Source: Planctomycetaceae bacterium (GTDB lineage: Bacteria > Planctomycetota > Planctomycetia > Pirellulales > Pirellulaceae). From it: 64,000 bases of DNA. Below the pieces are notes generated by a model. That model was given only the letters and a program-made list of their open reading frames with translations, did no database searches and was not told the origin of the DNA. Position 1 is the stretch's first letter. Every line of letters begins with the position of its first letter. The DNA is taken from positions 1-64,000 of the forward strand of contig JAAYDI010000169.1 in the NCBI GenBank assembly GCA_012729315.1. The letters run 5' to 3'. Made by a program: the position numbers and the translations under genes. Positions 1 to 63,067 of the stretch are shown here, piece after piece.

Positions 1-1
1 G

Positions 2-34
2 AAGGACGCCATTTTCACCAAGATCACTTTCTGA
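2..34 (+). CDS. C-terminal tail of a gene cut by the window edge
   Basis: The first bases read in frame 2 as KDAIFTKITF followed by a TGA stop at 32-34. A perfect hairpin with a T-rich tail follows about 90 nt later on the same strand, which fits the end of a rightward gene. Ten residues are too few to name a family. Confidence 0.4.
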   Translation, partial: KDAIFTKITF

Positions 35-126
35 ACGGGATTCCCTCGCAGGACCACTTATCCATAAACCACCGTCACGAACGAGAAAAATCGCCCACGT
101 TGGCGCGCACCAGAGAGATCGCACCC

Positions 127-172
127 GCGGGAGGTGGTTGTGCAGCGGCCACCTCCCGCTCCTTTATTTCTT
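127..172 (+). terminator. Intrinsic terminator, rightward
   Basis: An 11-bp perfect stem (127-137 with 149-159, sequence gcgggaggtgg and its complement) closes an 11-nt loop and is followed by the T-rich run tcctttatttctt. The T run lies on the plus-strand side, so it serves the gene entering from the left edge rather than metF. Confidence 0.7.
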
Positions 173-216
173 GCCGGCATTCTTACTGGCATTCTTACTG
201 GCATTCTTGCCGGCAC
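165..216. repeat. 12-bp tandem repeat downstream of metF
   Basis: About four copies of a 12-bp unit (gcattcttactg with variants ending gccg) stand in tandem between the terminator and the metF stop. On the minus strand the unit reads as repeated K-N-A-S/G in the same frame as metF, one stop codon downstream of it. Confidence 0.7.
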
Positions 217-256
217 GTTGCGCGCTCCGGCTCATGCGCACGCCGGACCGGGGGGG

Positions 257-1123
257 TTAGAGCTGCGAGACGGCCTGGAGCACGGCGAGTGTCGACTGGG
301 ACTTGTTGAGCACGTAGAAGTGGATGCCCGGCACGCCGCACTGGACCAGCTCGCGGACCTGCCGCGCTGCGAACTCGACCCCCACCTGATATTGCCACTG
401 TGGATCATCCCGGGCCGACAACTTCTCGACAAACGCCGGCGGCAGCGTGGCGCCGCACATCGAGGATATGCGCTGGATCTGCGACAGGTTGTTCACGGGC
501 AGGATGCCCGGCACCAGAGGGACGCGGATGCCTGCGGCCTGGTACCGGTCGCGGAAACGCAGGAAGTCGTCATTGTGATAGAACAGCTGCGTGATCACCA
601 CGTCGGCGCCCATATGCACCTTGTGCTTCAGGTGCTGCAGATCCTCCTCGCGGCTGAGCGCCTCGCGGTGTACCTCCGGATAACCGGCCACGGCAATGCC
701 AAAACCGGGAAACTCGGCTTTGATCAGCGACACGAGTTCGCTCGCGTGCCGCAAACCGTTGGCCGGCGACCGAAACACCGTCTCGCCCGATGGCGGATCG
801 CCCCGCAGTGCCACGATGTAGTCGACCCCGGCCTGCTGAGCGGTTGCCAGGTAGCTGCGCAGCTGGTCGACCGTCGAATCCACACAGGTCAGGTGCGATG
901 CCATGGGCACGTGGAACCGTTCCTTTACCTGCTTGATGACCTCCAGTGTCTGGGTGCGCGTCGAGCCGCCCGCGCCGTACGTGCAGCTGATGAAACTTGG
1001 CTGGCAGGTGACCAGTTCACGCACGTGCCGCAGCAGCGCCGCTTCGCCCTGCCGCGTCTTGGGGGGGAAGAGTTCAAAAGACAGGCCGAACCTGCCGGCA
1101 CCATAGGTCGCAGCTAGTGACAT
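257..1123 (-). CDS. metF: 5,10-methylenetetrahydrofolate reductase
   Basis: This cytoplasmic flavoprotein reduces 5,10-methylene-THF to 5-methyl-THF for methionine synthesis. The 288-residue product is close to the usual ~290-300 of bacterial MetF. Family blocks are visible in order: FELFPPKT near the N-terminus (catalytic Glu), TYGAGGSTR, LTCVD, ALRGDPP, AGYPEVH and TQLFYHNDDF. The frame is open a further 30 codons upstream, but that stretch is translated 33-nt repeat, so I start at the ATG at 1121-1123, directly before MSLAATYGAGRFG. It lies downstream of the GlmU-like gene on the same strand, but the inverted repeat array between them makes co-transcription uncertain. A lysine-rich frame continues after the stop (see findings). 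Confidence 0.95.
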   Translation of the reverse strand: MSLAATYGAGRFGLSFELFPPKTRQGEAALLRHVRELVTCQPSFISCTYGAGGSTRTQTLEVIKQVKERFHVPMASHLTCVDSTVDQLRSYLATAQQAGVDYIVALRGDPPSGETVFRSPANGLRHASELVSLIKAEFPGFGIAVAGYPEVHREALSREEDLQHLKHKVHMGADVVITQLFYHNDDFLRFRDRYQAAGIRVPLVPGILPVNNLSQIQRISSMCGATLPPAFVEKLSARDDPQWQYQVGVEFAARQVRELVQCGVPGIHFYVLNKSQSTLAVLQAVSQL

Positions 1124-1154
1124 GGCGTTCTTGTTGCGTAAATACGAGTGGAAC

Positions 1155-1427
1155 CGTGGATAATAACGAATGACGAGATACCCATGAATAATAGCGAATG
1201 ACGAGATACCCAAGCACGAAGGAAGGATGAATGATGAATGATGAGATACCCAAGGGCGAAGGATCCCGTTCAGACGTCGCCGCCAACGTTATTACACCCA
1301 GATTGTGCCCCACATTCGTGTTTCGTCCTTCCTTCGTGCTTGGGTATCTCGTCATTCGTCCTTCCTTCGTGCTTGGGTATCTCGTCATTCGTTATTATCC
1401 ATGGGTATCTCGTCATTCGTAATTAAC
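1155..1427. repeat. Inverted array 1 of the 33-nt MTNDEIPKHEG repeat
   Basis: The left arm (1155-1262) carries three forward copies with the GATA of gacgagatacccaag at 1177, 1205 and 1245. The right arm (1320-1427) carries three reverse copies with TATC at 1345, 1378 and 1406. The centre, 1263-1319, is unrelated. The outermost pair on each side is separated by 28 nt instead of 33 and carries the same variant spacer (catggataata and catgaataata), so the array is nearly mirror-symmetric. A folded strand would give a stem of about 100 bp. It fills most of the gap between metF and the GlmU-like gene. Confidence 0.9.
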
Positions 1428-1443
1428 AATAGCGCTTGGTTGT

Positions 1444-2694
1444 CTAGAGCAACAGGGGGTCGCCCCCCAGCTGTCGTTCATCGCGTGTGACGACGAACAT
1501 GTCGCGTATCAGCTGCTGGTCGAGCGGGCGTTGCGTGACCTTGCGCCGGGCGAACATCCGCCGCTGCGACGCGATCATCACGTCGGGAGGCAGTTCCGTG
1601 ACCTGGCCGAACAGCCGTGCGTAGTTGACGAAGCTCGGGACGTTGGAGGTCACAAACCCATACAGCATGCTGCACGCGCCGATGGTCTTACCGGTGAAGA
1701 TCCCCGTGTTGATGGCGGTTTTGGCGTAGTCGCCCATGATACAGCCGACGAACTGCATGCCGGTGGGCACCTTGTGACCGGCATACTCCATCTTCACTTC
1801 GCCGTAGGTATTCTTCAGGTCGCTGTTGCAGGTGCCGGCTCCCAGGTTGATCCAGCTGCCCAGGTAACTGTGTCCGAGGAACCCGTGATGCTGCTTGTTC
1901 GTGTACGACTCGATGATCGACGTCTCGACTTCGCCCCCGATCTTCGCGGTATGGCCGATTGAGACGTAGTCCTTGATCGCAGCGTGCTCGGTCACACGCG
2001 TGTGGGCACCGATGTGGGCGGGGCCGGCCAGGTAGGTGAACGGGCCGATGCACGAGTGAGCTTCCAGCACGATCGGGCCGGTGCGTGTGTCGGTTACCAT
2101 ATGCGCCCCAAGCCGTGTGCTGGGCGTGCCAAACACCCCATCCGCCAGCTCCTCGTAGCTGCCCGTGCGCAGGCGATAGAGGAGGTTGTCGTTGAGGGTG
2201 TCCTGGTTATATTGGATGAGTTGATGGGGGAAGTCGATCAGCTGCAGTTGAGCATCCAGTGGCTGGAGTTTGGCCAATCCGAGGTGTTCGAAGTACTCGC
2301 GGAGCGTCGCGGCCCGTAAGGCGACTGGCGGGGAGGGGGTGTTGGCCGGGAGGATCGCCACGGCCACGGCGGAACCGCAGTGCACGATGCCGGTTTCGGC
2401 GCGCTCCCGCAGCGTCCGGAGTGTCTCATACGTCTGCCACGAGGGGACGAGCCGCGCGTTGATCCACATCGTGTGCGTTTGCGGCGTCTGGACGTCCCGT
2501 TTGCGGAAACAGGGATAGTCAGCCTCCTGAAGTTCGACCAGGTAATCCCGCACGACCGCCTGTGGCGCGTCATCGAGCAACTCGATCCAGTCGACCAGTC
2601 GGAAGCTGCCGCACAGCATCGCATACGCGGGGCGCGCGAGGGTGATCGGAAACAGTTGTTGTACGTATTCGTCTTCGAAAGTGATTGTTTGCAC
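1444..2694 (-). CDS. GlmU-like UDP-N-acetylglucosamine diphosphorylase / glucosamine-1-phosphate acetyltransferase (alternative bacterial type)
   Basis: This is a two-domain sugar-nucleotide enzyme. The N-terminal half is a degenerate nucleotidyltransferase of the putative sugar nucleotidyl transferase type (FEDEYVQQLFPITLARP at the start, LVPSW further on). The C-terminal half is a left-handed beta-helix of hexapeptide repeats, for example IGPFTYLAGPAHIGAHTRV and LGSWINLGAGTCNSDLK. This layout matches the 'alternative' GlmU family of Bacteroidetes and Planctomycetes, expected to make UDP-GlcNAc for the cell envelope. I take the GTG at 2694 as start: GGAAGGA lies nine bases upstream and homology begins there. 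An in-frame upstream ATG would add 36 unconserved residues. The product is 416 residues. A role in UDP-GlcNAc synthesis is family inference. Confidence 0.82.
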   Translation of the reverse strand: MQTITFEDEYVQQLFPITLARPAYAMLCGSFRLVDWIELLDDAPQAVVRDYLVELQEADYPCFRKRDVQTPQTHTMWINARLVPSWQTYETLRTLRERAETGIVHCGSAVAVAILPANTPSPPVALRAATLREYFEHLGLAKLQPLDAQLQLIDFPHQLIQYNQDTLNDNLLYRLRTGSYEELADGVFGTPSTRLGAHMVTDTRTGPIVLEAHSCIGPFTYLAGPAHIGAHTRVTEHAAIKDYVSIGHTAKIGGEVETSIIESYTNKQHHGFLGHSYLGSWINLGAGTCNSDLKNTYGEVKMEYAGHKVPTGMQFVGCIMGDYAKTAINTGIFTGKTIGACSMLYGFVTSNVPSFVNYARLFGQVTELPPDVMIASQRRMFARRKVTQRPLDQQLIRDMFVVTRDERQLGGDPLLL

Positions 2695-2991
2695 TCGGTG
2701 TGGTCCTTCCGCTGTACGGTCGCACGGCAAGGGCTCCGTGCCCGGGTCGATTGCTGCGGCCGGCATGCCGCGCGTCTGACAGGGACACGGGGGGGCCGGC
2801 ACTTCGCCACGCGAGTTGGGCTTGCGCAGGGTATCGTCCCGCGAGGCCTGTAATTTATCGTAGGTTTTAGCAGCGCTGCGCGGCCGATCGAAAAGGCTGC
2901 CGGTGCGAGATAGAGACAGAAAGTGGAGTGTGGCAGGCCGCCCGCCCCCCGTAGACCCGATACGATCGTCATACGCGGCAGCACAGGATCA

Positions 2992-4068
2992 ATGACCATG
3001 GCCGACCTCTGGCTGGCAGGCTTCTCGATAACGTTCCGCGAAGGCACCCTGGCTGTTGCCCTGCTCGGTGTCGGTCTGGCTGCCGGCCTGCTGATCGGCC
3101 GCCGGCAGACCCATCACTGCGGTACCGCACTCCCGCCCGCCGAGATGCAGCGGCTGGTGAACCTCCTGGTCCCGCTGGTGAAGTGGACGCGCAGCCTGGC
3201 CGACGACATGTCGCAATACCGTGCGGTCGTCGGCAGCCTCTCCCGGCTGTTTCGTGATGGCCCGGAGCAGCTGGGGGAACGCCAGCGGCAGGCGACGGCA
3301 GGCGTGCTCTCTCAGGCGATCGAAGCGAACGAGCAGCTGCAGACACGACTCAACGAAGCCGAACGGATGCTGCAGGAGCAGGCCGGTGAGCTGTCGATCT
3401 ACATGTCCGAGGCCCGCACGGACGCCCTGACATGCCTTCCCAATCGCCGCGCCTTCGATGAAGACCTGGCCCACCGCCTGACCGAGTGGCGCCGATACCG
3501 GCGGCCGCTGTCCGTCGTGATGGCCGACATCGATCACTTCAAACAATTCAACGACAAGTACGGCCACCAGACGGGTGACGAAGTGCTGTGCCGCGTGGCC
3601 CAGCTGCTGCGCGACACGATGCGGGAATCCGATCTCGTAGTGCGGTATGGCGGCGAAGAGATGGCCGTCATCCTACCCGCCACCGATATTCGCGAGGCCT
3701 GCCGTGCTGCCGAGCGGGCGCGGCGCGCGATCGCGGCGGCGCCCTTCTACAGCCAGCGGGATGCGTGGTGCGTGACGCTCAGCCTGGGTGTGGCGGAGTG
3801 CATCGGTACGGATACCGCCAGTGTCCTGGTCAAACGGGCCGACGATGCACTTTACGCTGCCAAACAGGCGGGACGCAACTGCACTTTCTGGCACGACGGA
3901 TACCGCTGCCTCCCTGTGACGGACGAACTGGTTCCTGGCTCCCTGCCCGCATCACAACCGCCCCGCGAACTCGCTCACGACAAGGCCGGTGCAACATTCG
4001 CCGAGGTCTGCCATCAGCTACGGCAGCGCATGGAGCAGGTGATCTCGGCGGCATCAGGTCGGGAGTGA
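2992..4068 (+). CDS. Membrane-anchored GGDEF diguanylate cyclase
   Basis: The 358-residue protein makes the second messenger c-di-GMP. One membrane segment lies at about residues 19-36, followed by a predicted helical or coiled-coil linker (about 85-140) and a GGDEF domain (about 143-302). The active-site loop is GGEEM at 220-224, preceded by VVRY, and the metal-binding MADIDHF motif is at about 177-183. RESD at 211-214 stands exactly five residues before GGEEM, the spacing of the product-inhibition I-site, so the enzyme should be active and feedback-inhibited. A 55-residue tail follows the domain. ATG at 2992 follows AGGA; ATG at 2998 is an alternative. It is divergent from the GlmU-like gene and convergent with the pilin gene. 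Confidence 0.93.
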   Translation: MTMADLWLAGFSITFREGTLAVALLGVGLAAGLLIGRRQTHHCGTALPPAEMQRLVNLLVPLVKWTRSLADDMSQYRAVVGSLSRLFRDGPEQLGERQRQATAGVLSQAIEANEQLQTRLNEAERMLQEQAGELSIYMSEARTDALTCLPNRRAFDEDLAHRLTEWRRYRRPLSVVMADIDHFKQFNDKYGHQTGDEVLCRVAQLLRDTMRESDLVVRYGGEEMAVILPATDIREACRAAERARRAIAAAPFYSQRDAWCVTLSLGVAECIGTDTASVLVKRADDALYAAKQAGRNCTFWHDGYRCLPVTDELVPGSLPASQPPRELAHDKAGATFAEVCHQLRQRMEQVISAASGRE

Positions 4069-52794: not shown

Positions 52795-52850
52795 CGCACG
52801 CTCCTCTCACAAACGCAATGAGTTGCCGAATCGCGAGGCCAAGGAATGGG

Positions 52851-53145
52851 GAAGGACGGATGACCAGATACCCAAGCACGAAGGAATGACGGATGACGAG
52901 ATACCCAAGGACGAAGGGATGACGAATGACGAGATACCCAAGCACGAAGGAATGACAACAAATGACGAGATACCCAAGGACGAAGGGGAAATGACGAAAG
53001 AGGTCCCGGATGATCCGGATGCAATCCAAGTCCTCTTCGTGCTTCCGTTCTTTGTCCTTCCTTCGTGCTTGGGTATCTGGTCATCCGTCATTCCTTCGTG
53101 CTTGGGTATCTGGTCATCCGTCATTCCTTTTGGGTATCTCGCAAT
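52851..53145. repeat. Inverted array 2 of the 33-nt MTNDEIPKHEG repeat
   Basis: Left arm: four forward copies with GATA at 52867, 52900, 52933 and 52969 (33, 33, 36 nt apart; the last has one extra Thr codon). Right arm: three reverse copies with TATC at 53074, 53107 and 53135. Centre about 53005-53035. The units read MTDDEIPKDEG / MTNDEIPKHEG forward and the reverse strand reads F-V-L-G-Y-L-V-I. The first left copy and the first two right copies share gaccagata where the others have gacgagata. It fills the gap between the divergent sulfatase and Gfo/Idh genes. Confidence 0.9.
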
Positions 53146-53223
53146 ACATCATTTTTCCGCACGGTAGTGGGCAGTTGTTACGATGTCATGTTACCATGTC
53201 AGGAACTAGAAAGGAGTGCAGTC

Positions 53224-54647: not shown

Positions 54648-57353
54648 ATGTGTATCCTGCGAATTGGGCTGGTCGTGTTGGTCGCCGGTACCTGGGGTTT
54701 GCGGAACACGCAAGGCGCGGAGCTGGCCGTCACAGCGGTGACTGCAGTCAGCCGGGCAGCGGTCGCGGTTGAGCGGATCGTCGTGGACCCGGCGGCCGAT
54801 GCGGTGGAGAAGGCTGCAGCGAAGGAATTACAGAGCTACCTGGCGCGCATGGGCGGCGGGACTGTGCCGGTTGTCGAGTCAGCAGATCCGGCGGTGGCCA
54901 CGCCAGGTACGATCTGTGTGGGGCGCGGCGAGGTATCTGCCTCGCTCTGCCCGCCGGCCACGCTGGACCAGCTCGGCCTTGACGGTTTTGTGCTCCGCGC
55001 CCAGGACGGCCGTCTGGTGGCTGTGGGCCGGAACCATCGCGGGACCACCTACGCCGTGTACCGGCTGCTCGAGCGTCTGGGCTGCCGTTTCTACGCCAGC
55101 GACCTGGAAGTCGTGCCGACATTGGCGGCGGTCACTGTGCCGGAAGACTTTGAAGTCACAGACAGCGCCGCGTTCGAGTGGCGGGCGATGCACGGCACCA
55201 TTGCACCGATGAAGTGCACCCTGTCGCCTGGTGAATGGGAAGCGAAGGTGGCGGACGTGGACGTGCCGAAGATGATGGCGTTTCCCCGTGGCGGCTTCTG
55301 GCACCACACCATGGGCTTCCTCCTGCCCGCCAAGCCGCTGGCCGAGACACACCCCGACTACCTCGCTCAGATCGGCGGGCAACGGCGGGTATCGGAGCCG
55401 GCGGTGCAGCAGTACTGTCTCTCCAATCCCGAACTGCTCGCGGCGATGACCGAACGGGTGCTCGCCTGGATCGCCAGCGATCCGGACAAGGACTACTACC
55501 CGGTCCATTATGGGGACGTAGTCAGCTTCTGCGAATGCGACAATTGCAAAGCGATGTATGCAGAGAAGGGGAGTATTACCGACGCGGTGATCTGGTTTGA
55601 CAACCAGGTTGCCAAGGCCGTGGCGGCCAAGTATCCGGACAAGTATGTCACGATCCTCGCCTATCTCAGCACGCGTACGCCTCCGAAGAAGGTGAAGCCG
55701 GAGCCCAACCTGCTGATCATCTTCTGTGCGATCGTGGAGTGTCAGGCGCGGCCGTGGACGCACCCGGTGAACGTTCAGCGCCGAGTGCTGCAGGACCTGG
55801 AAGATTGGATCGACCTGCACCCGCTGGGCCCGAAGGGGATCATCACGTTCGAGTACCCGACCACCTACAACTATTCCGGCTTCACCTATCCGGCGCTCTA
55901 TGCCTTTGTGGAGAACGTGCGCGAGTACCAGCGTCTCGGCCTGCGTGGCGTCTACATCTGCGGGCTCGGCAGCTGGAAGCACCTTGAACACGCCTACTCC
56001 TACGTGATCCCGCGGATCCTGTGGAATCCGGACCAGGACATGGGCGCGTTGCTCGACGAATTCTGCGCCGCCTGGTACGGCTCCGCCGCCAAGCCGATGC
56101 GCGAGTACATCGAATGGCTCCACACCAGAGCCATGCAGTCGCAGAGCAAGGGGGTGATGGACTGCCATGCGGGTCCTGGACAGCCGTTCTTCCGCGAGCT
56201 GTATACGCCCGAGTTTATGGAGCAGGCCTACGCGCTGTTCGCCCAGGCCGAGGCGCAGGCCGAGGACGATACGGTACGCCAGCGAATCGCCAAGGAGAAA
56301 TGGGGATTCCTGTTCACGGACCTGTATCTGCACGGCGTCAGGTCCGGCGAGATCGTGCCGGCGGACACGCCCAGCGGAATCGAAACGTCGCCACCCAGGC
56401 AGGACGACTTCCAGAAGGTCTCGGAACTGCTGCGGATCAGCCGGCTCTACAACCGGCCGTGGGTCATCAACCCGCGGGCCTGGCACCATTACAGCCTGTC
56501 GTCGCTCGTGGGGGTCGAACCGGCGGGGGAACGCTGGTGGGACGACCCGCGCGTCCGGGAACTGATGGACGATCCCGCGCGTGCCTTCGGCCAGGCGGAG
56601 GAGCAGCACCAGCAGCGCGTGCAGCGCCTCGTCACACTCGAGAACGACGACCTGCAGGCGATCATCGTGCCCACGCTGGGCGGGCGCATCTGGCGGCTCT
56701 ATCACAAGGGTCTGCAGGTCGACCTGCTGCGGCGCAGCGGCCTGCCGATCGGCGGCCTGGAAAAAGGCCTGCCGCACGAGCCGTATCTCAGCCTGGGGGG
56801 CTATGAAGAGTATGCCGGGCGCGAATTCGGCGCCATCGGTTGGGGCCAGGACTGCACGTGCGACGTCGCTGCCGACGGTACGTCCGCGACGCTCACCGCC
56901 GTGCTGGAAAACGGACTGAAGCTCGTCCGTGTGATCTCGCTGGCCGCCGACAAGGCCGAGGTGATCGTGGATTCGCGACTGGAAAACACGGGCACACAGG
57001 CTGTGCAGGATGTGGTCCTCCGCGTGCATCCCGAGTTCCGGCCACAGGCGGGCGGCGAGATGCCGGAACTGCTGGGCTTGAGCGACAGCGGCACGTGGGA
57101 AACGATCGCCTACCAGGGCGGTGACAACGCGCTGACAGGATCACGTCGCCCGCAGGGTGGCTGGGCAGTCCTCTTCCCCCAAGCCGGTCTGCGCGTGGAA
57201 AACAGGTTCGACCCGGCGCAGGTCGAGACCTGTTTCTTCTACGACGGCAGGACCTTTTTCAACCTGGAACTGTTTTCGCCGGGACGCGATCTGGAACCTG
57301 GTGCCAGCCTCGGGATTCGACACCGCTACCTCGTTCAACGCGTCGAGCGCTAA
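54648..57353 (+). CDS. Secreted DUF4838 / GH67-like glycosidase
   Basis: The 901-residue secreted protein (signal about 1-23) starts with a GH67-like N-terminal domain (PAADAVEKAAAKELQSYLARMGG, then TTYAVYRLLERLGCRFYASD). The DUF4838 TIM-barrel follows (about 190-530) with SFCECDNCKAMYA cysteines, GIITFEYPTTYNYSGFTYPAL and RGVYICGLGSWKHLEHAY. A beta-sandwich C-terminal domain (about 650-900, ARAFG then LEKGLPHEPYLSLGGYEEY) resembles a mutarotase-like or substrate-binding module. Related enzymes process uronate-bearing glycans. GGAG eight bases before ATG 54648. Confidence 0.85.
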   Translation: MCILRIGLVVLVAGTWGLRNTQGAELAVTAVTAVSRAAVAVERIVVDPAADAVEKAAAKELQSYLARMGGGTVPVVESADPAVATPGTICVGRGEVSASLCPPATLDQLGLDGFVLRAQDGRLVAVGRNHRGTTYAVYRLLERLGCRFYASDLEVVPTLAAVTVPEDFEVTDSAAFEWRAMHGTIAPMKCTLSPGEWEAKVADVDVPKMMAFPRGGFWHHTMGFLLPAKPLAETHPDYLAQIGGQRRVSEPAVQQYCLSNPELLAAMTERVLAWIASDPDKDYYPVHYGDVVSFCECDNCKAMYAEKGSITDAVIWFDNQVAKAVAAKYPDKYVTILAYLSTRTPPKKVKPEPNLLIIFCAIVECQARPWTHPVNVQRRVLQDLEDWIDLHPLGPKGIITFEYPTTYNYSGFTYPALYAFVENVREYQRLGLRGVYICGLGSWKHLEHAYSYVIPRILWNPDQDMGALLDEFCAAWYGSAAKPMREYIEWLHTRAMQSQSKGVMDCHAGPGQPFFRELYTPEFMEQAYALFAQAEAQAEDDTVRQRIAKEKWGFLFTDLYLHGVRSGEIVPADTPSGIETSPPRQDDFQKVSELLRISRLYNRPWVINPRAWHHYSLSSLVGVEPAGERWWDDPRVRELMDDPARAFGQAEEQHQQRVQRLVTLENDDLQAIIVPTLGGRIWRLYHKGLQVDLLRRSGLPIGGLEKGLPHEPYLSLGGYEEYAGREFGAIGWGQDCTCDVAADGTSATLTAVLENGLKLVRVISLAADKAEVIVDSRLENTGTQAVQDVVLRVHPEFRPQAGGEMPELLGLSDSGTWETIAYQGGDNALTGSRRPQGGWAVLFPQAGLRVENRFDPAQVETCFFYDGRTFFNLELFSPGRDLEPGASLGIRHRYLVQRVER

Positions 57354-57371
57354 ACGCCATCCCCGCGTGCA

Positions 57372-57462
57372 AAACCAGCAACTAAACCCTGAAAACTGAA
57401 CACTAAACCCTGAAAAGTGAACACTGAACACTGAAAACTGAAAACTGAACACTGAAAACTTC
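57372..57462. repeat. ctgaaaactgaacact low-complexity repeat between convergent genes
   Basis: Seven-base units ctgaaaa and ctgaaca alternate about ten times in the gap between the convergent DUF4838 and membrane-acyltransferase genes. This type of slippage repeat is common in planctomycete intergenic DNA (family knowledge). Confidence 0.85.
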
Positions 57463-57469
57463 CCCCACC

Positions 57470-58627
57470 TCAAACCCTAACGAACGTCTCCGTCCTGTAC
57501 ATCCAGTACATGATCAGCCACATCACGGTCAGTGCGGCACAGGCCTGGATCAGGTCCCGCACATCGGGTGCGCACAGCTCGCTGATTCCACCGACGACGA
57601 TGTTCCCGATCAGGCGGAAGTCGAACAGGTGCGCCATCATGTAGATGGCGATGGAATTGGCGCCCAGGACGACCAGGGCACAGGCCGTCCGCCGGTAGCC
57701 GAGCAGGTCGATCAGCAGCACGAAGGCGGCCAGCAGCAGCGTGGTCAAGCCACAGGTCACGAGCACATAGGAGCTGGTCCACAGGCTCCGGATCACAGGG
57801 AACCATGGCGCCCACACCAGGCCCGCTGCCAGCATCGCCGTGCCGGCAGCGGACAACAGCGCGATCTTGCGCTTGGCCGCCCCGGTGTGCTCCAGCACCT
57901 GGCCCATAAGCACGCCCAGCAGCACGTTGGCGATGAAGCTGATGGTCGCCAGGACCTGCCAGGAACCGGGCCGGTGGAACGGACCCAGCACGGCATTGTC
58001 GACATAGATCGCCAGATTCATGTCGGCGGAATAGATGCCTCCGTCCCAGCCGGGAACGGGGACGAACTGGAAGAGCAGCCAGTAGCCGGTCAGCAGCGCC
58101 AGGGCCAGGACCAGCTGAAACGGCCAGGCGGTATTGAGCACCATGACCGCGCACACCAGATAGCCGACGGCGATGTACTCCAGCACGTTGTTGTACAGCG
58201 GCATGTGGGCAAACTTGAGCTCCAACAGGTGCCCGCCCGCGATCAGGCCCAGCAGGAACAGTATCAACGAACGCCTGACGATCTGCAGGTAGATTCGGCG
58301 TTCACCGCCAACTCCCTGCGCCCGCCGCCGGTTGAGAGAGATCGGTATGACGAGCCCGACGACAAACAGGAACATGGGCATGGCCAGGAAGCACACGCGG
58401 AGCCCCTCGACGAAATCGTATCTGAACTGCTCCGCGAAAGAGCTGCCGAAACGGCTGTCCCACAGTTTTGCGAGCGCTGGGAGCACCGGCGCTCCGCCAA
58501 TGTCGATCGAGATAATCAGCAGCATGGCCAGGCCGCGCAAGGCGTCAATGCTGGCCATCCTGTGAGAGGCAATCGGACCTCGGTCGCGCGTGGGAGCGGA
58601 CGCCGGCATTCCGTGTAGCTGTGACAC
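57470..58627 (-). CDS. DUF5009/heparan N-acetyltransferase-like membrane protein
   Basis: The 385-residue integral membrane protein has about ten helices. It begins RMASIDALRGLAMLLIISIDIGG, the acyltransferase-3-like R-x-x-S-x-D-x-x-R-G-x-A/L start, with WPFQLVLALALLTGY and VLGANSIAIYMMAHLFDF further on, matching the DUF5009 / NagX-like family related to heparan-alpha-glucosaminide acetyltransferase. It may acylate a glycan in the membrane. Start is GTG 58627 with AAAGGA upstream. Confidence 0.88.
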   Translation of the reverse strand: MSQLHGMPASAPTRDRGPIASHRMASIDALRGLAMLLIISIDIGGAPVLPALAKLWDSRFGSSFAEQFRYDFVEGLRVCFLAMPMFLFVVGLVIPISLNRRRAQGVGGERRIYLQIVRRSLILFLLGLIAGGHLLELKFAHMPLYNNVLEYIAVGYLVCAVMVLNTAWPFQLVLALALLTGYWLLFQFVPVPGWDGGIYSADMNLAIYVDNAVLGPFHRPGSWQVLATISFIANVLLGVLMGQVLEHTGAAKRKIALLSAAGTAMLAAGLVWAPWFPVIRSLWTSSYVLVTCGLTTLLLAAFVLLIDLLGYRRTACALVVLGANSIAIYMMAHLFDFRLIGNIVVGGISELCAPDVRDLIQACAALTVMWLIMYWMYRTETFVRV

Positions 58628-62939: not shown

Positions 62940-63067
62940 CGCGGAGCATTGCATCCAGGTGGGGCCACGCGGGTCTGCAGTCGGAGGGTGAAAGGATCGA
63001 TGTGGGAAGTGGCGTGGTGAAAGGCCCGGAGAAACGGCCCTGGGTGCGGTCGAACGTACGCCGTCTG

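Follow-up and report, generated by a model that had tools for sequence, protein, structure and literature searches.

The inverted repeat array upstream of metF in a planctomycete contig is probably a non-autonomous, S23-less form of a mobile foldback element. In its complete form, this element consists of inverted arrays of approximately 7-nt repeats around an S23 gene. The DNA analysed, referred to as the window, is a stretch of 64,000 nt (Planctomycetaceae bacterium GCA_012729315.1, contig JAAYDI010000169.1, positions 1-64,000). In the full element of this genome, the approximately 7-nt repeats are organised into 33-nt units, and the gene encodes an S23, or 23S-rRNA-intervening-sequence, protein (PF05635, TIGR02436). 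As judged from sequence comparison, the array belongs to a dispersed family with a fixed inward polarity, one member of which carries an S23 gene between the same arms; S23 genes and heptads are associated in many phyla, and on plasmids such elements have replaced target DNA. Genes for S23 ("four helix bundle") proteins are common and structures have been solved, but to our knowledge no function is established; likewise, heptameric repeats have been noted repeatedly, and we know of no agreed explanation. Tying the two together yields a concrete hypothesis for both.

The array, termed element 1, and its neighbouring genes are arranged in the window as follows.

Positions 257 to 1123, reverse strand: metF, methylenetetrahydrofolate reductase (PF02219, E 1.2e-88 for the ORF at 257-1213).
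Positions 1161 to 1263, forward strand: left arm of element 1, three unit copies (cores at 1168, 1196 and 1236), from arm alignment and core search.
Positions 1264 to 1315, no strand assigned: loop of element 1, without an S23 gene or convincing S23 remnant, from the sequence and tblastn with the S23 protein.
Positions 1316 to 1425, reverse strand: right arm of element 1, three unit copies, inverted (cores at 1339, 1372 and 1400), from arm alignment and core search.
Positions 1444 to 2802, reverse strand: GlmU-like sugar nucleotidyltransferase, the 3ʹ end of which adjoins element 1 (PF13562, E 2.7e-18).

The ATG at 1123 was chosen as the metF start; the ORF as listed extends to 1213, inside the array. 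Element 1 lies between the co-directional GlmU-like and metF genes, directly upstream of metF. Three forward and three reverse copies of one unit had been reported here from the letters alone, and all six are recovered at the cores given above. As read, the 33-nt unit is made up of two GAATGAC copies followed by GAGATACCCAAGCACGAAG, the 7-nt heptad being contained in the unit; it spells MTNDEIPKHEG in one direction and ...LGYLVIRH... in the other, where the first-pass annotation had given the former and a hydrophobic Y-L-V-I run. Positions 1161-1237 and 1349-1425 are 94% complementary over 77 nt, and in the comparison with a shuffled model that had been proposed for arm identity, the arms score 62, whereas 200 single-base shuffles reach 12 at most. 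The outermost spacing of 28 nt and its variant spacer, said to be common to both arms, prove to be so, with ACCCATG in place of ACCCAAG in the outer copies of each. The 33-nt spacing expected inside the arms holds for the right arm (core-to-core steps of 33 and 28) but not for the left (28 and 40), where the 40-nt step is 33 nt plus one 7-nt heptad. The RNA of element 1 is predicted to fold at -171 kcal/mol. An Rfam search of window positions 1-3000, up to E 1, returned no family at its gathering score; the sole match, to the plant microRNA family MIR840 at 1196-1356, is sub-threshold (38.7 bits against a gathering cut-off of 150) and is probably a chance similarity, because element 1 is a long hairpin.

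Element 1 is one of many copies in its genome. Searching the whole genome with an 18-nt core, at up to two mismatches, gave 102 matches (56 forward, 46 reverse), and the reversed control gave none. At least 28 scattered clusters exist, this being the number read in 18 stretches chosen from the core matches and in the window; one further stretch with a different-looking repeat (L021) was excluded. The other array that the first-pass annotation had mentioned, located at about 52839-53153, is likewise an element of this kind, termed element 2:

Positions 52839 to 52992, forward strand: left arm of element 2, four unit copies, from core search and cluster reading.
Positions 53046 to 53153, reverse strand: right arm of element 2, three unit copies, inverted, from core search and cluster reading.

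Sixteen of the 28 clusters are two-armed, and all 16 run forward and then reverse, with no reverse-then-forward step; the number of unit copies per arm ranges from 1 to 7. A mobile hairpin had been one of the readings first offered for the array, to be given up if the unit were confined to the two arrays or its copies elsewhere never formed inverted pairs; instead, the unit is dispersed, and its inverted pairs share one polarity. Clusters in two other stretches (L023 and L035) also have the 28-nt step with ACCCATG at their outer ends, so that this outer end is a feature common to the family. Five contigs (C61, C113, C157, C192 and C210) terminate 136 to 317 nt past an array, as repeats would cause. 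GAATGAC arrays that lack the ATACCC part are likewise dispersed. Among 59 other relatives, the window's unit was found in three, at no more than three matches each, and it is absent from the one same-genus genome. The flanks of three array clusters are 98-100% identical between contigs (L023:1688-1815, L028:2163-2289 and L025:2109-2152), which suggests recent copying of more than the hairpin.

The distribution of the clusters among genes bears on a different role, in which the hairpins would be retained because they terminate transcription in both directions or stabilise RNA 3ʹ ends, their dispersal and the S23 gene being incidental. The predicted hairpin is very stable, and nine of the 16 two-armed clusters (14 of them classifiable, by a crude ORF rule) lie between convergent genes and none between divergent ones; several of those between convergent genes also carry a stop codon inside an arm. 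Convergent gaps may, however, simply tolerate insertions, element 1 itself lies upstream of metF between co-directional genes, elements on Nostoc plasmids interrupt genes, and such a role would leave the association of S23 with heptads across phyla unexplained. As the whole account, termination is therefore unlikely, although it is possible as a side effect of a mobile element.

The likeness of the two arms raises another alternative, namely recurrent local slippage and template switching at quasi-palindromes that arise from heptameric repeats. Units in the two arms of one element are on average 85.4% alike, compared with 82.6% (sd 0.6) for arms exchanged among elements, a difference not reached in any of 10,000 permutations, and the variable unit number per arm also fits slippage. 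Against it, the 33-nt unit and the outer ends are common to many loci, private repeat dialects of single genomes are shared with S23 loci, and empty sites exist. Purely local origin is thus quite improbable. Template switching, also suggested at the outset, may help to keep arms alike but does not by itself account for dispersal.

One cluster carries the gene that defines the full element. At L035:7088-7705, the family's arms enclose a long loop with an ORF on the minus strand (L035:7175-7576) that passes the cut-offs of both PF05635 (38.4 bits against 33.8, E 1.6e-9) and TIGR02436 (59.9 bits against 24, E 2.5e-16). Its first residues, MTNDEISKGGG, are the repeat unit read as codons, and the gene start lies inside the arm. 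This accounts for the "coding-like" appearance of the 11-codon unit, which had been noted in element 1 and in this one copy is the beginning of the S23 gene. A structure model of a close relative of the S23 protein (L072) has four helices at a pLDDT of 93.5 and matches PDB entries 2rld and then 2gsc (the product of the Xanthomonas campestris S23 gene xcc0516) best, from which a four-helix bundle is predicted for the S23 protein of the element.

Several observations weigh against the mobile foldback element as the best explanation. Only one of the 28 clusters contains S23, and tblastn of the S23 protein against the surroundings of the clusters found no convincing remnant (best E 0.23 besides the S23 copy itself). 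Two other PF05635 matches in the genome, one above the cut-off and one just below it, have no flanking inverted arrays, with a flanking inverted repeat of 16.6 bits each; S23 can therefore exist without arrays. One PF05635 gene without flanking arrays (L037:1501-1812, on G000:C118) lies upstream of what appears by eye to be a DNA polymerase III alpha gene and is possibly a settled S23 gene used by the host.

In other genomes, too, gene-less copies appear from sequence to use the same genome-private repeat dialect as the S23 copy. One genome (G099) has 19 matches to the arm unit of its S23 element; G106 has seven, the window's genome (G000) three, and the remaining 23 of 26 genomes none. The unit of another (G105) has 92 matches at home, 16 each in G107 and G109 and at most five in each other genome; that units of one genome are present in some others as well is a further point against the preferred reading. 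Counted from the listed matches, oppositely oriented neighbouring units no more than 500 nt apart are arranged forward and then reverse in 22 of 22 cases in G105 and seven of seven in G099.

The association of S23 genes with inverted heptad arrays extends well beyond planctomycetes. Three sets of S23 loci were compared. The first came from a protein search of named genomes (the best 80 of 298 relatives) that used six peptide patterns, and it is biased toward the arm type of this element because one of the patterns was MTNDEISK; it spans Planctomycetota, Verrucomicrobiota, Kiritimatiellota, several Patescibacteria-type phyla, Bacteroidota, Acidobacteriota and others, and many of its proteins start repetitively, in the manner of MTNDE or MTKSE. 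The second consists of the PF05635 loci with the highest scores among the window's relatives, picked without any repeat pattern, and the third of 19 loci from named plasmid records (15, 42 and 9 found), including Cyanobacteriota, Chloroflexota, Gemmatimonadota and Alphaproteobacteria. When the two flanks of each S23 gene, about 500 nt each, were compared at a threshold of at least 30 bits, an inverted repeat was present at 65 of 79 loci in the first set and 24 of 29 in the second, against none and none in dinucleotide shuffles; shifted positions gave none of 139 for the first set. Among the plasmid loci, 16 of 19 reached the threshold, as did none of 36 shifted controls. The loci that fall below 30 bits (14/79, 5/29 and 3/19) count against the preferred reading; the sole Bacteroidota plasmid locus is at 26.5 bits. 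A control in which arms of different loci were paired (15/80 at 30 bits or more, against 65/80 observed) is confounded because loci have repeats in common, and it was replaced by the shuffles and shifted positions.

The repeats of the second set vary from locus to locus (TCGGGAT, GAGGGGC, TCAGTGG and others), yet the 7-nt period is kept. At a lag of 7, matching is 7.4 points above background in 157 flanks (z 14.4) and 9.8 points above it in 59 flanks (z 12.6); no such excess is seen 1 kb away. Among arms of at least 26 nt, 7 is the best lag from 3 to 12 in 42/56, 21/22 and 13/15. The purine fraction of the left arm is above one half in 47/65, 20/24 and 13/16, which is a tendency only. Taken together, the link between S23 and heptads is strong. 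Rfam found no family at cut-off in the 40 S23 loci searched (20 of 80 from the first set and 20 of 30 from the second); these loci are therefore not insertions in rRNA. One planctomycete protein shares 58-73% identity with S23 proteins from 26 loci in several phyla. Nevertheless, a tree of 75 of 80 S23 rows (five without a usable core by the motif rule were dropped; 64 have a phylum name) requires 17 changes of phylum, not far above the 13 that 14 phyla need at the least, and therefore does not support frequent transfer between phyla. A search of phage records with the L041 S23 protein, at E 1e-5, gave no match.

Mobility is best documented on Nostoc plasmids, where occupied and empty sites can be compared. 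In plasmid pNsp_c of Nostoc sp. ATCC 53789, an S23 element (L196:2341-2806) interrupts a gene for a DNA cytosine methyltransferase that three relatives possess intact, and it replaces 328, 328 and 331 nt of the target (relative to L197, L198 and L199). An S23-less hairpin on the same plasmid, with AATTCGC arms like those of that element, lies near the end of a DUF1392 gene, where 212 nt correspond to 47 nt in L198. In Nostoc sp. TCL26-01, an S23 element (L192:2399-2984) takes the place of 61 nt (relative to L202) and 60 nt (relative to L203) at the 3ʹ end of cas1. Inspection of the Nostoc plasmid junctions revealed no evident target duplication; target DNA was lost instead. In the same-genus genome (G001), 96 nt separate the GlmU-like and metF matches, compared with 322 nt in the window, and the array of element 1 is absent. 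Because of the Nostoc plasmid cases, gain of element 1 here is likelier than loss in G001. The spacer has diverged too far for the insertion point to be placed, and at the locus of element 2 only the left-hand gene matches well in that genome. Such pairs of occupied and empty sites give the mobile hairpin its support: judged by these alignments, mobility is well supported for plasmids and likely for the planctomycete genome. A further S23 gene, on a Nostoc edaphicum plasmid, is located between both ribonucleotide reductase subunit genes in the opposite orientation to them, with inverted TAGGGAG arrays (L205:1483-1851).

The mechanism that we infer for this movement has no transposase. RNA or a single strand of the element would fold into a hairpin, and S23 would bind the arm repeats and serve S23-less copies in trans. 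New copies would then enter by capture during replication or at breaks (template switching), not through a transposase, and the same copying process would keep the arms alike. Among the families searched, Y1_Tnp and RVT_1, no transposase linked to the element was found; the genome has one RVT_1 gene, on contig C70. It also has one Y1_Tnp gene, and the element could be a REP/BIME-like repeat spread by such a RAYT transposase, the inverted repeats being short and dispersed and parts of two element loops on contig C192 matching repeats near the Y1_Tnp gene at 73-81%. This is very improbable, however: the unit is a direct repeat and not itself palindromic, the full element has S23, and the stretch around the Y1_Tnp gene (L040) contains a single GAATGA-type motif and no such array.

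The mobile foldback element resembles several known systems in part. REP, REPIN and BIME sequences are small, dispersed, inverted intergenic repeats without an enzyme of their own and are associated with RAYTs. Unlike their palindromic units of 20-40 nt with a linked RAYT, the unit here is a direct repeat, its partner gene is S23 rather than a Y1 transposase, and no array surrounds the single Y1_Tnp gene. Of the features of MITEs, inverted ends are present, the plasmid junctions have lost target without evident duplication, and the search for a parent covered Y1_Tnp and RVT_1. Eukaryotic foldback elements (FB, Galileo and Tetris) have long inverted arms composed of short modules in tandem, arms that differ in length, a variable loop and gene-less copies, and they are tied to eukaryotic transposases; here, in contrast, the gene in the loop is S23, and we know of no homology between them and this element. 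The Avd protein of diversity-generating retroelements belongs to a related four-helix-bundle family, according to the available part of its description (PMC10053308). One of four S23 proteins matches the Avd model NF033474, at 28.2 bits against a cut-off of 80, and, unlike in those systems, no retroelement was seen in association with the element.

The closest likeness is to the intervening sequences (IVSs) of rRNA genes. In the available text on the Coxiella 23S rRNA, a 428-nt IVS is described as a "selfish element" whose terminal inverted repeats enclose S23, with heptameric repeats arranged in tandem, in varying number, ahead of the S23 start (PMC4990558); rRNA insertions of CPR bacteria are a further known system of this kind (PMC11270868). 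As far as these sources go, both kinds of element share an S23 gene in a hairpin-forming inverted repeat, heptameric repeats before its start and a length of approximately 430-470 nt. S23 and heptads within terminal inverted repeats are found at L035:7088-7705 and at most S23 loci, whereas element 1 has the arms only. By contrast with an IVS, which lies inside an rRNA gene and is cut from pre-rRNA, element 1 is intergenic, and elements here lie between or inside protein genes, with no rRNA at the 40 S23 loci searched; moreover, the arms are repeat arrays, and each genome holds many S23-less copies. S23 inserts in rRNA and heptameric repeats are each already known; what is new relative to IVSs is the location outside rRNA, the many gene-less copies and the genome-private repeat dialects.

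Dispersed 7-nt repeat arrays are also familiar from cyanobacteria, as STRR sequences, and very small mobile repeats have reportedly been described from the same group. In the portions of the literature available, GGGAATC repeats of Xanthomonas and heptameric repeats of Nostoc are dispersed and mostly intergenic, as in this family, with 70 and 75 convergent pairs in Xanthomonas (PMC4692102), and sets of TAACTGA repeats in Beggiatoaceae are nearly all direct (PMC4679880). Those portions treat the heptads as simple repeats, G-quadruplexes or regulatory sites and do not name S23 (PMC4692102, PMC4679880). Similar heptamer repeats in Xanthomonas are reported there as 83% conserved in place between two species (PMC4692102), which speaks against a mobile element. 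It may be, though we put this forward tentatively and regard it as rather doubtful, that the heptad arrays (planctomycete GAATGAC, Xanthomonas GGGAATC, cyanobacterial STRR and Beggiatoaceae TAACTGA) and the rRNA IVSs form one transposase-less mobile class of inverted heptad-armed hairpins, served by S23 in trans, with folded RNA or single strand copied into broken or replicating DNA, where it would replace target without duplication. Intergenic S23 combined with inverted heptad arrays was not found described among the open-licence papers searched.

On this hypothesis, S23 would be the protein encoded by a selfish hairpin element, small and widespread, whose insertion sites include rRNA genes, CRISPR-cas loci and plasmid genes as well as intergenic DNA. 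If true, bacteria would have their own equivalent of foldback elements, with no known transposase, and the old question of how IVSs move would become directly testable. S23 genes in cas loci have been listed among interesting functions associated with CRISPR-Cas, in the accessible part of that survey (PMC3936711). Of five S23 loci in cyanobacterial CRISPR-cas regions, four have inverted arrays of at least 50 bits (L192, L204, L207 and L209) and one is at 27.4 bits (L216); insertion of an element is therefore a simpler reading there.

Two other repeats were observed in the window. An ACTGAAA-like, heptad-type array at 57381-57463 has a single orientation, with no inverted partner seen by eye within 57301-57560, and repeats 91% similar to it occur near the Y1_Tnp gene in L040. 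A stretch of 35-39 nt at 63005-63043 is a dispersed repeat, 95-97% identical to the loops of two elements that reach contig ends (L030 and L035:14518-14555).
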